Below are positions 59,207-64,000 of a stretch of DNA of 64,000 nt, one piece after another (position 1 is the stretch's first letter; each line of letters opens with the position of its first letter). The stretch comes from Streptomyces sp. NBC_01445 (lineage in GTDB: Bacteria > Actinomycetota > Actinomycetes > Streptomycetales > Streptomycetaceae). The stretch lies in the NCBI RefSeq assembly GCF_035918235.1, contig NZ_CP109485.1, positions 6,735,001-6,799,000 of the forward strand, written 5' to 3'. The position numbers and the translations under genes were made by a program. Below the pieces are notes generated by a model, which saw nothing but the letters and a program-made list of their open reading frames with translations, had not been told where the DNA came from and ran no database searches.

Positions 59207-60244
59207 TCAGCCGGCCACCGGGGTGAGGGTGAGGGGCTGGACCTTGCCCTCCAGCATCGCGCCGAGGCCGAGGACCGCGCAGACGTCGGGGCGTTCGGCG
59301 ATATGGACCGGTACGCCCGTGGCGTCGCGCAGCATCTGGTCGAAACCGGGCAGCAGCGCGCTGCCGCCGACCATCATGATGCCGCGGTCGGCGAGGTCGG
59401 CCACCAGGTCGGGCGGGCAGTCCCGCAGGACCTTGCCGATGCCGTCGAGGACGGCGGTCAGCGGGGTGTGGATCGCGTGGCGCACGGCCGCCGTGTCGAC
59501 CACCACCGAGCGGGCCAGGCCCGTCGCCACGTCCCGGCCGTGGATCTCCGTCGACTCCGGGCCGTACGGGGTGAGGCCATTGCCGCTGAGGGCGATCTGC
59601 AGGGGACGTACGGACTGGGACGGGAGCATCAGTTCGTGGTGCTGGCGCAGGTGCTGGACCACCGCGTGGTCGATGGCGTCGCCGCCGACCGGGATGCGCT
59701 CGGCGGTCACGATCGAGCCCAGCGACAGGACGGCGATCTGTGTCGTGGCCGCGCCGCACACGATGATCATCGTGCCTTCGGGGCGCTCCACGGGCAGGTT
59801 GCAGCCGACGGCGGCGGCGATGAGGGTGTCGACGAGTTCGACGCGGCGCGCTCCGAGCCCGACCAGGGTCTCGACGGCGGCGCGCTGTGCGAGCGGGTCG
59901 GCGTCGTGCGGGGTGCAGGCGGCGGCGCGCAGCCGGGGCTTGCGGCGCAGTGCGCGGCGCAGCTTCTCGCCGATGAGGTGGCGCAGCATGCGCTGGGCCA
60001 TGTCGATGTCGATGACAGTGCCGCCGGAGACGGGGCGCATGACGCGGATGTAGTCGGGGGTGCGGCCCGTCATCTTCTCGGCGAGCTCACCGACCGCGAT
60101 CAGGGCGCCGGTGCGGGTGTTGACGGCGGCGGCGCTCGGCTCGTCGACGACGAGGCCCGCGCCCTTCACGTACACCCGGGTCCGCGCGGCCCCCAGGTCG
60201 ACGGCGAGATGGCAGCGGCGCAACTGCTCCAGACTGACGGTCAT
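59207..60244 (-). CDS. mbl: MreB-like cell-shape protein (Mbl type)
   Basis: A 345-residue actin-fold protein. Phosphate loop CHLAVDLGAARTRVYVKG, GGTVIDIDMAQRMLRHLI, VDTLIAAAVGCNLPVERPEGTMIIVCGAATTQIAVLSLG (connect and phosphate 2) and GGSALLPGFDQML (adenosine motif). It fits the shorter, divergent Streptomyces Mbl rather than MreB, and acts in spore-wall synthesis with MreB. The ATG at 60244 follows GGAGGAT by 5 nt. No mreCD genes are adjacent, as expected for mbl. Divergent from the MFS gene. Confidence 0.88.
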   Translation of the reverse strand: MTVSLEQLRRCHLAVDLGAARTRVYVKGAGLVVDEPSAAAVNTRTGALIAVGELAEKMTGRTPDYIRVMRPVSGGTVIDIDMAQRMLRHLIGEKLRRALRRKPRLRAAACTPHDADPLAQRAAVETLVGLGARRVELVDTLIAAAVGCNLPVERPEGTMIIVCGAATTQIAVLSLGSIVTAERIPVGGDAIDHAVVQHLRQHHELMLPSQSVRPLQIALSGNGLTPYGPESTEIHGRDVATGLARSVVVDTAAVRHAIHTPLTAVLDGIGKVLRDCPPDLVADLADRGIMMVGGSALLPGFDQMLRDATGVPVHIAERPDVCAVLGLGAMLEGKVQPLTLTPVAG

Positions 60245-60396
60245 GGCAGATCCTCCCGAGAGCGCAGACCGTGACGGGTCGTCAAATAACGGCCCTCCTG
60301 AAATCCTGCGGCGGGGTGGCGCCGGGCGCGCGCTGGAATGAGCCGGGCGGGGTTCCGCCGGACGGGTGGTCTTGCCGGGCGTTGTTAGCATCCCGT

Positions 60397-61728
60397 GTGA
60401 CCAGCACCCCGTCCTCGCCGGACCAGGCAGACGCCTCCGAGACCCCTGCGATATCAGCTCCGGCACCGGTGAAGGGCCCCGCGCCGGGTGGTCGTCGCCG
60501 GATTCTCGCCGATCTCACCCCGTTGCGTATCTCCGTCGACTACCGGCGCCTGTGGGTCGGCAACACGGTGTCCTGGACGGGCCAGGCGATGACCGCGCTC
60601 GCGGTGTCCCTCCAGGTGTACGACATCACGCACTCCAGCTTCTCCGTGGGCCTGGTCGGCCTGTTCTCGCTGGTCCCGCTGGTCGTCTTCGGCCTCTACG
60701 GGGGTGCCATCGCGGACACGATGGACCGGCGCAAGCTCGGCTTGTACAGCGCGACCGGCTCGTGCGCGCTGTCCGTGGCACTGGCCGTCGCGGCGCTCGC
60801 CGGCTACCACCGCGTCTGGCTGCTCTACGCGGTCGTGGCCCTCCAGGCGATGTGCGGGGCGCTCAACTCCCCGGCGCGCACCTCGATGATCCCGCGCCTC
60901 CTGCCGCCCGAGCACCTGCCGGCGGCGAACGCGCTCAACTCCATGACGGGCACAGCCGGCGGCCTCATCGGCCCCATGCTGGGCGGCGTCGTGGTCGGCC
61001 TGTGGGGCTACCAGACGGCGTATCTGATCGACGCGGTCGCCTTCTCGGCGGCGCTGTACGCGATGTGGCGGCTGCCGGCGATGCTGCCGGACGCGCCGGA
61101 TGGCGAACGGCGGGGGCGCGCCTCGGTCATGGACGGCCTCCGCTTCCTGGCGGGCCGCCCCAACCTGCGCATGACCTTCTTCTCCGACATGTGCGCGATG
61201 GTGCTCGCGAGCCCGCGGGCGCTGTACCCGGCCGTCGCGCTGCTCTGGTACGGCGGCGACGCGCGGACGACCGGCCTGCTCGTCGCCGCTCCCGCGGTGG
61301 GCGCGCTGCTGGGCGGGGTGTTCTCCGGCTGGCTGGGCCGCGTGCACCGGCACGGCCTGGCGATCATCCTCGCCGTGTGCGCGTGGGGCCTCGCGATCGC
61401 CGTCTTCGGCCTGACCAGAAACCTCTGGCTCGGCCTCGTCTTCCTCGCCCTCGCCGGCTGCGCGGACACGATCTCGATGGTGTTCCGCGGCACGATGCTC
61501 CAGGTCGCGGCCCCCGACGAGATGCGGGGCCGCCTCCAGGGCGTCTTCATCGTGGTGGTGGCGGGAGGCCCCCGCCTGGGCGACTTCCTCGCGGGCACGG
61601 TCGCCGACCTGTCGTCCCCGACGGTGGCCATCACGGGCGGCGGCCTGGCCTGCGTAGTGGCGGTACTGCTGCTGGCGCTGAGGTCGCAGAGGTTCCTGCG
61701 GTACGACGGGCGGGAGCCGGAGGCGTGA
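60397..61728 (+). CDS. MFS exporter, EntS-like 12-TM type
   Basis: A 443-residue major facilitator of the MFS_3 / enterobactin-exporter group. A hydrophilic Ser/Pro lead of about 40 residues precedes TM1 (WVGNTVSWTGQAMTALAVSLQVYDIT), then GAIADTMDRRKLG, PARTSMIPRLLPPEHLPAANAL and the C-terminal MLQVAAPDEMRGRLQGVF. GTG start at 60397 with TAGCAT 5 nt upstream and no ribosome binding site: likely leaderless. No siderophore cluster is near, so the substrate is open. Confidence 0.88.
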   Translation: MTSTPSSPDQADASETPAISAPAPVKGPAPGGRRRILADLTPLRISVDYRRLWVGNTVSWTGQAMTALAVSLQVYDITHSSFSVGLVGLFSLVPLVVFGLYGGAIADTMDRRKLGLYSATGSCALSVALAVAALAGYHRVWLLYAVVALQAMCGALNSPARTSMIPRLLPPEHLPAANALNSMTGTAGGLIGPMLGGVVVGLWGYQTAYLIDAVAFSAALYAMWRLPAMLPDAPDGERRGRASVMDGLRFLAGRPNLRMTFFSDMCAMVLASPRALYPAVALLWYGGDARTTGLLVAAPAVGALLGGVFSGWLGRVHRHGLAIILAVCAWGLAIAVFGLTRNLWLGLVFLALAGCADTISMVFRGTMLQVAAPDEMRGRLQGVFIVVVAGGPRLGDFLAGTVADLSSPTVAITGGGLACVVAVLLLALRSQRFLRYDGREPEA

Positions 61729-61741
61729 CCGATCGGCGCCT

Positions 61742-64000
61742 TCATCGGCGTAAGGCGTCGACGATCTCGGTGAGGTTCCGCACCGTGTGGTGGGCGCCCG
61801 CGGCTCTCAGGCGGTCGTGAGTGCGGGGGGTGGGGGTATGGGCGATGAAGGGGAGGCCGATGGTCTGGGCCGCCGCCAGTTCCGTGGGGGTCGAGCCGAT
61901 GAGTACGGCGTGCGGGGTGGGGGAGCCCGGTTGGTGCAGGGCGCGGTGCAGGGCGTCGGGGTTCGGCATCAGGTGGGTGGCGTTGTCGGTGCGGCCGTGC
62001 ACGCCCGCCCGTACCGTCAGCGAACGGCTCTCCAAATAGGACCGGACGACGAGCCCGGACACGTCCGAGACGACGGCCACCGGGCGGCCCGTCGAGTTCA
62101 GGGTGCGCAGCAGGAGGTCGGACTCGCGGACCGGGCGCGCGGAGCGCAGGGCTCGTAGTTCGATCTGGTCGAGGCGTTCGAGCAGGGGTCCGGCCAGGCG
62201 CGGGTGGCGGGCGAAGGTGCGCAGCACGTCGAGGGGGTGGACGCCCTCCTCCCTGTGCGTGACGTTCGCCAGCAGCGCCGTGCCGTTGAGCGCCTCTTCC
62301 GGGTCGCGGAGTTCGGTGATCAGGGCGGTGAGTTCACTGGCGGCGTTGCGGGCGGTGCGGTCCGTGTAGAGGCGGACCAGCAGGCCGTCGAAGCCAAGCA
62401 GGAACTTCTCGGCCCCGGACAGTACGTCGTCGGTGGTGCGGGAGCGTGGCGTGTGTGGGGGCCGCGTGGTCCCCCAGGGGGCCTCGTCGCTTCCGGGGAG
62501 GGGGACGGCCGGTTCGGTGGCTGTCGTGGTGTCGTCCGGTTCCGTGGCTGCCGTTGCCTCCGTGGTGTCCCCGGTCAGCCGGCGTTCGAACGCCTCGGCC
62601 GCGTCCGCGCCCTCTATGGCCCGGACCGTCTCGACCAGGGCGAGTTCGCCGGTCGGCACGCTCAGTGCCGAACCGGCCAGGGTGGCCGCGTCCTCGCGCG
62701 GGCCGGGGCCTCGCAGGTCGACGGGCTGATGGAGGTGTGTGGCCAGGACCGAGGCGAACTCCCTCCGGCTTTCCGGGTCTTGCAGCCGGTCCAGGGTGTT
62801 CAGCGCCGTCGTCAGGCGGTGCAGCCGGTCGAGGCTCATGGCCGTGAGCATCCGGTACCAGTACGCGGGCGGGTCCCCGCCCATGGCGCGCAGGCCGAGC
62901 GCGGACACCGTGTACGGGTCGACGAGTTCGGGGGAGACGGTGACGCTGGACGCCGCCGAGTGCGCGGCGAGTTGGGCGTGGAGGGACTCGCGTGCCGTGC
63001 GGTGGGCGGGGCCCGCCGGCCAGAAGACCACAGTGACGTGCACTCCGGCGGGGAGCCCTGCGACGCGTACGGGGGCGGGTACGTCGGAGAGAGCGGCGGG
63101 GAGTTGGGTCACCGTCGACTCCAGCAGGTGCTGTGCGGCCTCCCCTGTCCTGACCGTGACCTCGTAGCCGCCTGGGATGCGCCGCATGCCATGGTTGACG
63201 CCGGCCGACTCGGTCAACTGGGAGACGATCTGAGCGAGGTCGACCTGCGAGTCGCCCGCCACCTCGAAGGTGACCGAGGTGTGGGCCCCGGACCGCGAGG
63301 CCTCCGCGCCGCGTGCCGCCAGGAGGTCCCGGTGGAGTTCGGCCAGTTCCGGGCCGGTCCGTCCGCCCGCCGCCTCGTACTCCTCGTACGCCCCGACGGC
63401 TTCCTCGATGCGGCCCTGGCGCTGCAGGGCGATCATCTGGAGGCGGCGGAAGTCCTCGCGGGACGGGTACGCGCGGATGAGGGCCGCGAGGTCCGTGGCG
63501 GCGCGCTCGAAGTCGCCCAGGTCCAGGTCGAGTTCGGCGCGGGTGCACCGGAGTGTGAGGTGGCGTTGGATGAGGCGGGTGCGGGCTCTCTGGGCGGCCG
63601 GGCCGCGGACTCCGTCCAGGGGGGTGCCCCGCCACAGCGAGAGGGCGGCGGCGATGTGGTCGCGGGCCGTGCGCAGGTTGCCCACGGCGCGTTCGACCTC
63701 GGCGTCGGCGACCAGGCCCTCGCACTGGTCGACGTCGACGGTGTCGGTGCTGGTGTGCAGGGCGTAGCCGTCGGGGAGCGTGGGGAGGACGCCGGGGCCG
63801 AGCGTCTTGCGCAGGCGGGAGGCGCACGTGCCGAGGAGGGCGTCGGCACGATCCGGGCGTCCGCCGGGGGCCCACATGCCTTCCATCAGTTCGGCACGGG
63901 TGACGGTGTTGCCGCGCCGGACCAGCAGCATGCCGAGCATGGACTGGAGTGCGGGGGCGGACGGGGTGACGGGCGTGCCGCCGCGCGTGACGGTCAGGGG
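61742..64000 (-). CDS. BTAD/SARP-like regulator fused to a degenerate HAD-like domain (5' end outside)
   Basis: The frame is open through the window edge; at least 752 residues are visible. N-terminal visible part: winged-helix OmpR-type half (ALQSMLGMLLVRRGNTVTRAELMEGMW, RADALLGTCASRLRKTLG) and BTAD helical repeats (LWRGTPLDGVRGPAAQRARTRLIQRHL to EDFRRLQMIALQRQGRIEEAVGAYEEYE). A middle beta-rich region and a Thr/Pro/Glu linker follow. The C-terminal 220 residues resemble a HAD hydrolase (KFLLGFDGLLVRLYTD, VAVVSDVSGLVVRSYLE, AVLIGSTPTELAAAQTIGLPFIA), but the nucleophile Asp is Gly and other catalytic residues are changed. Its neighbour mbl is not obviously related. Confidence 0.85.
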   Translation of the reverse strand, partial: PLTVTRGGTPVTPSAPALQSMLGMLLVRRGNTVTRAELMEGMWAPGGRPDRADALLGTCASRLRKTLGPGVLPTLPDGYALHTSTDTVDVDQCEGLVADAEVERAVGNLRTARDHIAAALSLWRGTPLDGVRGPAAQRARTRLIQRHLTLRCTRAELDLDLGDFERAATDLAALIRAYPSREDFRRLQMIALQRQGRIEEAVGAYEEYEAAGGRTGPELAELHRDLLAARGAEASRSGAHTSVTFEVAGDSQVDLAQIVSQLTESAGVNHGMRRIPGGYEVTVRTGEAAQHLLESTVTQLPAALSDVPAPVRVAGLPAGVHVTVVFWPAGPAHRTARESLHAQLAAHSAASSVTVSPELVDPYTVSALGLRAMGGDPPAYWYRMLTAMSLDRLHRLTTALNTLDRLQDPESRREFASVLATHLHQPVDLRGPGPREDAATLAGSALSVPTGELALVETVRAIEGADAAEAFERRLTGDTTEATAATEPDDTTTATEPAVPLPGSDEAPWGTTRPPHTPRSRTTDDVLSGAEKFLLGFDGLLVRLYTDRTARNAASELTALITELRDPEEALNGTALLANVTHREEGVHPLDVLRTFARHPRLAGPLLERLDQIELRALRSARPVRESDLLLRTLNSTGRPVAVVSDVSGLVVRSYLESRSLTVRAGVHGRTDNATHLMPNPDALHRALHQPGSPTPHAVLIGSTPTELAAAQTIGLPFIAHTPTPRTHDRLRAAGAHHTVRNLTEIVDALRR

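Follow-up and report, generated by a model that had tools for sequence, protein, structure and literature searches.

The HAD-like domain at the C terminus of a large Streptomyces protein is, on well-supported sequence evidence, catalytically dead, and in our alignments the catalytic loss is uniform among the intact vWA-fused HADs examined. From its domains and gene neighbourhood, the protein is assigned as the vWA component of a VMAP-MoxR-vWA ternary conflict system, a type of system with a predicted role in virus defence, with SARP/BTAD as one of several C-terminal modules. We consider it fairly probable (about 0.6) that the dead modules of this component serve as baits and that the trypsin domain on VMAP is the output. 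An inactive HAD of this kind is already in print, since a derived, possibly inactive HAD has been reported beside inactive kinases and cyclases in VMAP ternary systems (Kaur et al., 2020, PMC7159879); the uniformity of its loss is added by the present analysis.

Results

Gene, domains and operon

The window, which is the whole stretch of 64,000 nucleotides analysed from Streptomyces sp. NBC_01445, carries on its minus strand a frame that is open at 61742-64000 and runs past the window end, covering residues 744-1495 of a 1495-aa protein. Retrieval of the 5' end beyond the window, as advised in the original prediction, gave a complete ORF of 1495 aa with an ATG start (L009:6743-11230:-; 1501 aa in the frame of the genome search) and a GC3 of 0.90, and brought in a vWA-like core and a degenerate kinase, with MoxR and VMAP genes further upstream. 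Both the size of the gene and what is known of its kind exceed what the window alone reveals. Its product is arranged as vWA-like core, degenerate kinase, SARP wHTH/BTAD, degenerate nucleotide-cyclase-like domain, EAD2 and HAD, with the SAV_2336 N-terminal domain at residues 24-479 (E 9e-124) and the kinase-like region at approximately residues 512-660. The protein had been described from the window as a SARP/BTAD regulator fused to a HAD-like domain; these modules are indeed present, but they are parts of a vWA component rather than of a SARP regulator to which a HAD was added. The features of the window part are the following:

61742..64000, minus strand: vWA-component protein, 3' part (residues 744-1495 and stop); the 5' part lies beyond the window, at L009 9002-11230
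63794..63943, minus strand: SARP-type winged HTH (residues 763-812); Trans_reg_C E 0.0025, under its cut-off
63320..63739, minus strand: BTAD domain (residues 831-970); PF03704 E 2.6e-24, over cut-off
62840..63280, minus strand: degenerate class III nucleotide-cyclase-like domain (residues 984-1130); profile chain via A6
62594..62809, minus strand: EAD2, effector-associated domain 2 (residues 1141-1212); PF19956 29.0 bits, cut-off 23.8
62426..62584, minus strand: Thr/Glu/Pro-rich low-complexity linker (residues 1216-1268); sequence composition
61745..62416, minus strand: HAD-like domain without catalytic residues (residues 1272-1495); profiles and motif alignment
62387..62395, minus strand: motif I, G1279 (nucleophile position), F, D1281 (second Asp kept); alignment, codons checked
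62063..62068, minus strand: motif II, S1388 and D1389; alignment, codons checked
61967..61969, minus strand: motif III, M1421 at the Lys position (M-P); alignment, codons checked
61880..61894, minus strand: motif IV, S1446 and E1450 at the two Asp positions (G-S-TPT-E); alignment, codons checked

The AfsR model NF053617 aligns with both the wHTH and the BTAD domain (residues 728-975, E 1.9e-47), at a score far below the model cut-off. The linker at 1216-1268 is probably flexible, and residues 1216-1280 are identical to P0003 at 26/65 positions. Elsewhere in the window, the minus strand at 59207-60466 encodes what by eye looks like an MreB/actin-like protein (VDLGAARTRVYV, GGSALLPG).

Upstream and on the same strand lie a trypsin/VMAP-C gene and a gene for a MoxR-like AAA protein (339 aa), the latter with an 11-nt overlap with the vWA gene. 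The resulting order VMAP, MoxR, vWA on one strand is that of the VMAP ternary conflict system (Kaur et al., 2020, PMC7159879). VMAP-C was detected in the 5' gene (PF20028, E 2.4e-44) and in none of 14 control genomes, and the motifs AHV, DLAVLEL and GFSGA (His/Asp/Ser) of the VMAP trypsin domain were located. The MoxR-like gene matched AAA_5 (E 8.3e-9); its Walker motifs were read by eye, as were WPVYTG and PPWRAF for the N-terminal WxhapG and PsWRxa motifs. Reading by eye also gave HDTGPTM and SDCTGPQW as candidate sites of the two Asp of a vWA domain, for which Pfam had no match at E 0.1; the N-terminal ELAELLW is conserved, and the printed [D/E]xxx[D/E]xxxa spacing was not matched by eye. 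MoxR and VMAP homologues stand on the same strand in 20 of the 21 fused loci, the remaining one being cut by a contig end, and the SAV_2336 core was found over cut-off in 126/150 genomes of the genus.

Three VMAP-C genes and three EAD2 domains are present in the genome. Two more VMAP systems (L154 and L155, near C1:2754000 and C1:5161000) have NB-ARC/TPR proteins in the vWA position and carry EAD2 on VMAP or on an adjacent trypsin gene, whereas in the present system EAD2 lies inside the vWA component. A pairing of this EAD2 with the two other systems finds no support in sequence closeness, as it shares 20/77 and 20/78 identical residues with theirs against 52/78 with P0003.

Kinship and catalytic positions of the HAD domain

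As a single sequence the domain matches HAD_2 at E 0.012, under the Pfam cut-off. A profile of 21 fused HADs (A2) found AlnB (4ex6) as its best match among solved structures (E 1.4e-12) and 52 distinct solved sequences at E<=0.01, most of them annotated as HAD-type phosphatases, phosphoglucomutases or dehalogenases; against separately encoded HADs (A3, a selection of 20 of the 78 rows) it aligned over 220 columns with an hhalign probability of 100 and E 8e-47. By these profiles the fused domain is clearly HAD, and the kinship that had been proposed by eye is retained.

The HAD domain was searched against 150 genomes of the genus, its own included, of which 93 matched at E 1e-10; with 20 candidates scored in most genomes the counts of fused HADs are lower bounds, and, the query being a dead HAD, a more distant vWA-fused HAD with an intact site could be missed. 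The full-length set was drawn from 20 regions with fused genes, 60 further regions and earlier loci, with 31 matches of the genus search (all at E 5e-18 or weaker) outside it. A second protein search yielded 3 relatives and took no further part in the analysis. It comprised 102 HAD rows, namely 21 with a vWA core in the same ORF, our protein included, and 81 others. Membership of the fused class was defined by the vWA-core match, independently of the catalytic residues. Three of the 81 non-fused rows, L091 and two pieces of L092, were dropped before counting as apparent broken fused genes. These two fused-type genes, L092 (G040) and L091 (G067), are broken in different ways, one being split over two frames and one being a 188-aa open frame.

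In all 21 fused HADs, Gly stands at the nucleophile position, Glu at the last motif IV position and Met (13), Thr (6) or Leu (2) at the motif III Lys, and the first motif IV Asp is replaced by Ser (16), Ala (4) or Tyr (1). The second Asp of motif I is better kept (D 16, E 4, N 1; acidic in 20/21), as is motif II (T 14, S 4, A 2, G 1; T/S in 18/21). An Asp after motif II is found in every fused HAD and in 6/78 of those encoded separately. The separately encoded HADs keep the nucleophile Asp in 76/78, the second Asp and the motif II T/S in 78/78 each, the Lys in 76/78 and the motif IV Asp residues in 77/78 and 78/78, so that all six positions are intact in 74/78, against 0/21 fused HADs with the enzyme set of a HAD phosphatase (nucleophile Asp, Lys, motif IV Asp). 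The same four losses recur in 21/21 relatives for which fusion to the vWA core was the sole criterion of class, and so go beyond chance. The original prediction had read the losses (Gly for the nucleophile, no Lys, both motif IV Asp replaced) in the one protein; the residues that it named in motifs I, III and IV are all present, as confirmed codon by codon, and the conservation of the loss across Streptomyces, which it had proposed to look for, extends to every vWA-fused HAD of the sample.

A few separately encoded HADs also deviate. L108 (G024) and L109 (G023) carry Gly for the nucleophile Asp and keep the Lys, L108 being also devoid of the first motif IV Asp; both sit inside the standalone part of the HAD tree, and their changes look like independent losses. 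In L063 (G020) and L107 (G017) Glu replaces the motif III Lys, and the other five positions are kept.

Descent and selection

A tree of 99 HAD rows (midpoint rooting, quick search) places the fused HADs on one side of a branch with SH-aLRT 100, and the branch is still found with SH-aLRT 99 after removal of the catalytic columns. Repeated independent loss within the fused set is not needed, given this single grouping even without those columns. The dN/dS values, obtained by a simple Nei-Gojobori count, were 0.25-0.42 for the fused HADs in nine overlapping pairs, which have rows in common and were chosen for their closeness in the tree, 0.30-0.43 for the vWA core in those pairs, and 0.06-0.49 in ten pairs of separately encoded HADs. 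By this measure the fused HADs are under purifying selection. Neutral decay of the HAD is ruled out by dN/dS below 1 in nine of nine fused pairs together with the fixed replacements (Gly, Glu and the Asp after motif II, each 21/21). Purifying selection despite the lost catalytic residues points to a function of the dead domain.

Constraint in the lineage of our protein may be weaker, since the HAD comparison with P0010/L121, the nearest relative with DNA available for it, gave a higher ratio (dN 0.26, dS 0.45, dN/dS about 0.58; core dN 0.09, dS 0.32, about 0.28). In the same comparison the cyclase-like domain (dN 0.69, dS 0.79) and EAD2 with the linker (dN 0.92, dS 0.82) reached about 0.9-1.1, values that come from a poor alignment. 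The C-terminal part changes faster, as the core is 97% and the HAD 67% identical to P0003. In comparisons of P0001 with P0003 and P0004, identity dropped from 97% in the vWA core to 40-80% across the segments that follow it, starting with the kinase.

The same genome encodes a separate HAD (L010) with 35% identity to the fused domain and the same layout of motifs I-IV, but with D/D/T/K/D/D intact. The dead HAD probably arose from the family to which L010 belongs. At L010 2316-8795 this actinobacterial HAD lies beside a GntR gene, further GntR-like ORFs and a 755-aa ORF that by eye resembles a double APH-like kinase.

The other C-terminal modules

The kinase domain is over its Pfam cut-off and reads HGR at the HRD site and LFN at the DFG site. 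In an alignment of 34 rows, which like the wHTH rows are not independent (L050 and P0024 share one wHTH), the Asp is found at the HRD position in 3 (P0012, P0023, P0025) and at the DFG position in none. The kinase Lys is kept in our protein and in 13/34 rows in all; with this residue, the kinase-like module may still bind nucleotide.

The cyclase-like domain occurs in 20/21 fused proteins. Its profile (A4) had no direct match in Pfam or PDB, and its link to cyclases is an indirect chain, in which A4 matches A6, a profile built from further proteins of the genus (hhalign probability 96.5, E 7.3e-10), and A6 matches the guanylyl cyclase 3et6 (E 1.5e-5). A search of the genome gave no convincing second copy of this middle domain. 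A 1454-aa protein of G024 carries a cyclase-like domain and is absent from the matches of the HAD search. EAD2 was detected by Pfam in 2/21 fused proteins. Its place between the cyclase-like domain and the HAD is taken in 16/19 fused relatives by a segment of 156-220 aa, which matched no solved structure; our guess is that it corresponds to the domain that Kaur et al. (2020, PMC7159879) call 'Band seven'.

Discussion

The C-terminal string of the vWA component would be a series of degenerate versions of four kinds of cellular signalling protein (Ser/Thr kinase, SARP activator, nucleotide cyclase and actinobacterial HAD phosphatase). Binding is the likely role of its dead modules, since the HAD and the kinase are devoid of catalytic residues and the catalytic motifs are in place in the MoxR ATPase and the VMAP trypsin. 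We infer that these modules work by binding proteins and act as baits of a sensor formed by MoxR and vWA. An invader protein aimed at the active counterpart would bind the dead copy, the vWA-MoxR pair would relay this event with ATP, and the VMAP trypsin domain would be the likely output. The non-catalytic role that had been proposed for the HAD is supported by these data.

The published proposals differ in the direction of the signal. In Kaur et al. (2020, PMC7159879), the vWA C terminus is presented as effectors or decoys released by VMAP proteolysis and not as sensors. Dore et al. (2024, PMC10907252) propose the opposite, with the vWA protein as sensor and the VMAP N terminus as output. Their DGR-diversified VMAP systems resemble the present one in having a vWA protein with a variable C terminus, a trypsin on VMAP and a proposed sensor role; their variation, in contrast, is made by a retroelement in lectin-fold domains. 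The system described here differs from those in the main text of Kaur et al. in that its wHTH is a SARP with BTAD, two words absent from that main text, to which the comparison was confined, and in that its EAD2 is placed after the cyclase-like domain and before the HAD. No experimental test of a VMAP ternary system was found in the literature searched. The order from bait to protease is favoured here because the VMAP end appears to carry the active enzyme.

The release of decoy effectors is the first alternative to be weighed: the VMAP trypsin would cleave the vWA protein at its linkers, after which the dead kinase, cyclase and HAD, once free, would inhibit or titrate active counterparts or invader proteins. 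Trypsin motifs on VMAP, the low-complexity linker and the presence in this genome of a separate HAD gene whose catalytic set is intact all agree with such a course. To our knowledge, no cleavage and no cleavage site is known for the vWA protein, which counts against release. With a proposal in print on its side (PMC7159879) and one of opposite direction against it (PMC10907252), we regard release as possible at well under even odds.

Within the bait reading, a more specific version can be envisaged, in which the protein is a chaperone-linked sensor with several integrated decoys, so that phage attack on a kinase, SARP, cyclase or HAD node would trip one and the same MoxR-gated protease. Integrated decoys exist in plant immune receptors, and this version would be their bacterial counterpart. 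We put it forward as speculative.

Another possibility is a transcription switch, in which MoxR/vWA would gate the SARP wHTH/BTAD as the working output, with the dead HAD serving it as scaffold or as ligand sensor; it comes closest to the original prediction. The module follows the AfsR/SARP activators in the order wHTH-BTAD and in homology, but it is embedded in a vWA protein without an NB-ARC match at E 0.1, and several of the DNA and RNA polymerase contact residues described for AfsR (PMC10936776) are changed. In AfsR numbering, mapped through L002, R59, W74, P79, T88, S91, R92, R94 and K95 are kept, D71 is a Glu and thus still acidic, and S46, Q48, E76, S80, Q81 and R87 are lost. Five of the six recognition-helix contacts compared (T88, S91, R92, R94 and K95, with R87 lost) are therefore retained, and given these residues the wHTH of our protein may still bind DNA; the BTAD domain is intact. 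However, when 29 fused rows (28 distinct wHTHs) were compared with 6 SARPs of the same genome, a basic residue at 95 was found in 5/29 against 6/6 and R92 in 17/29 against 4/6. Position 76, at which AfsR needs its residue for activation (PMC10936776), is Gly in our protein and acidic in 3/29 fused rows, yet it is acidic in only 3 of these 6 SARPs. Moreover, BTAD is present in just 13/21 fused proteins by Pfam and 14/21 by phmmer. A transcriptional output is improbable on this balance.

The HAD might also have another activity, or sense a metal or ligand through D1281, S1388 and E1450. The frequent retention of the second Asp and of motif II, together with the invariant Glu of motif IV, fits such a role, and D1281 and E1450 could bind metal; with the nucleophile, the Lys and the first motif IV Asp lost throughout the fused HADs, we have little confidence in it. 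The motif III Lys of HADs would hold phosphate. Its loss in every fused HAD examined makes phosphate binding unlikely, and with it the sensing of a phosphorylated ligand that had been suggested for this domain.

The present counts make a quantitative case that the fused HADs are a group without catalytic residues throughout yet under purifying selection, and the wHTH of the vWA component can now be named as SARP/BTAD. With an intact, separately encoded HAD in the same genome, the decoy idea is open to a test. Should the bait reading hold, the modules of such proteins would tell which host pathways are attacked by the phages of Streptomyces.
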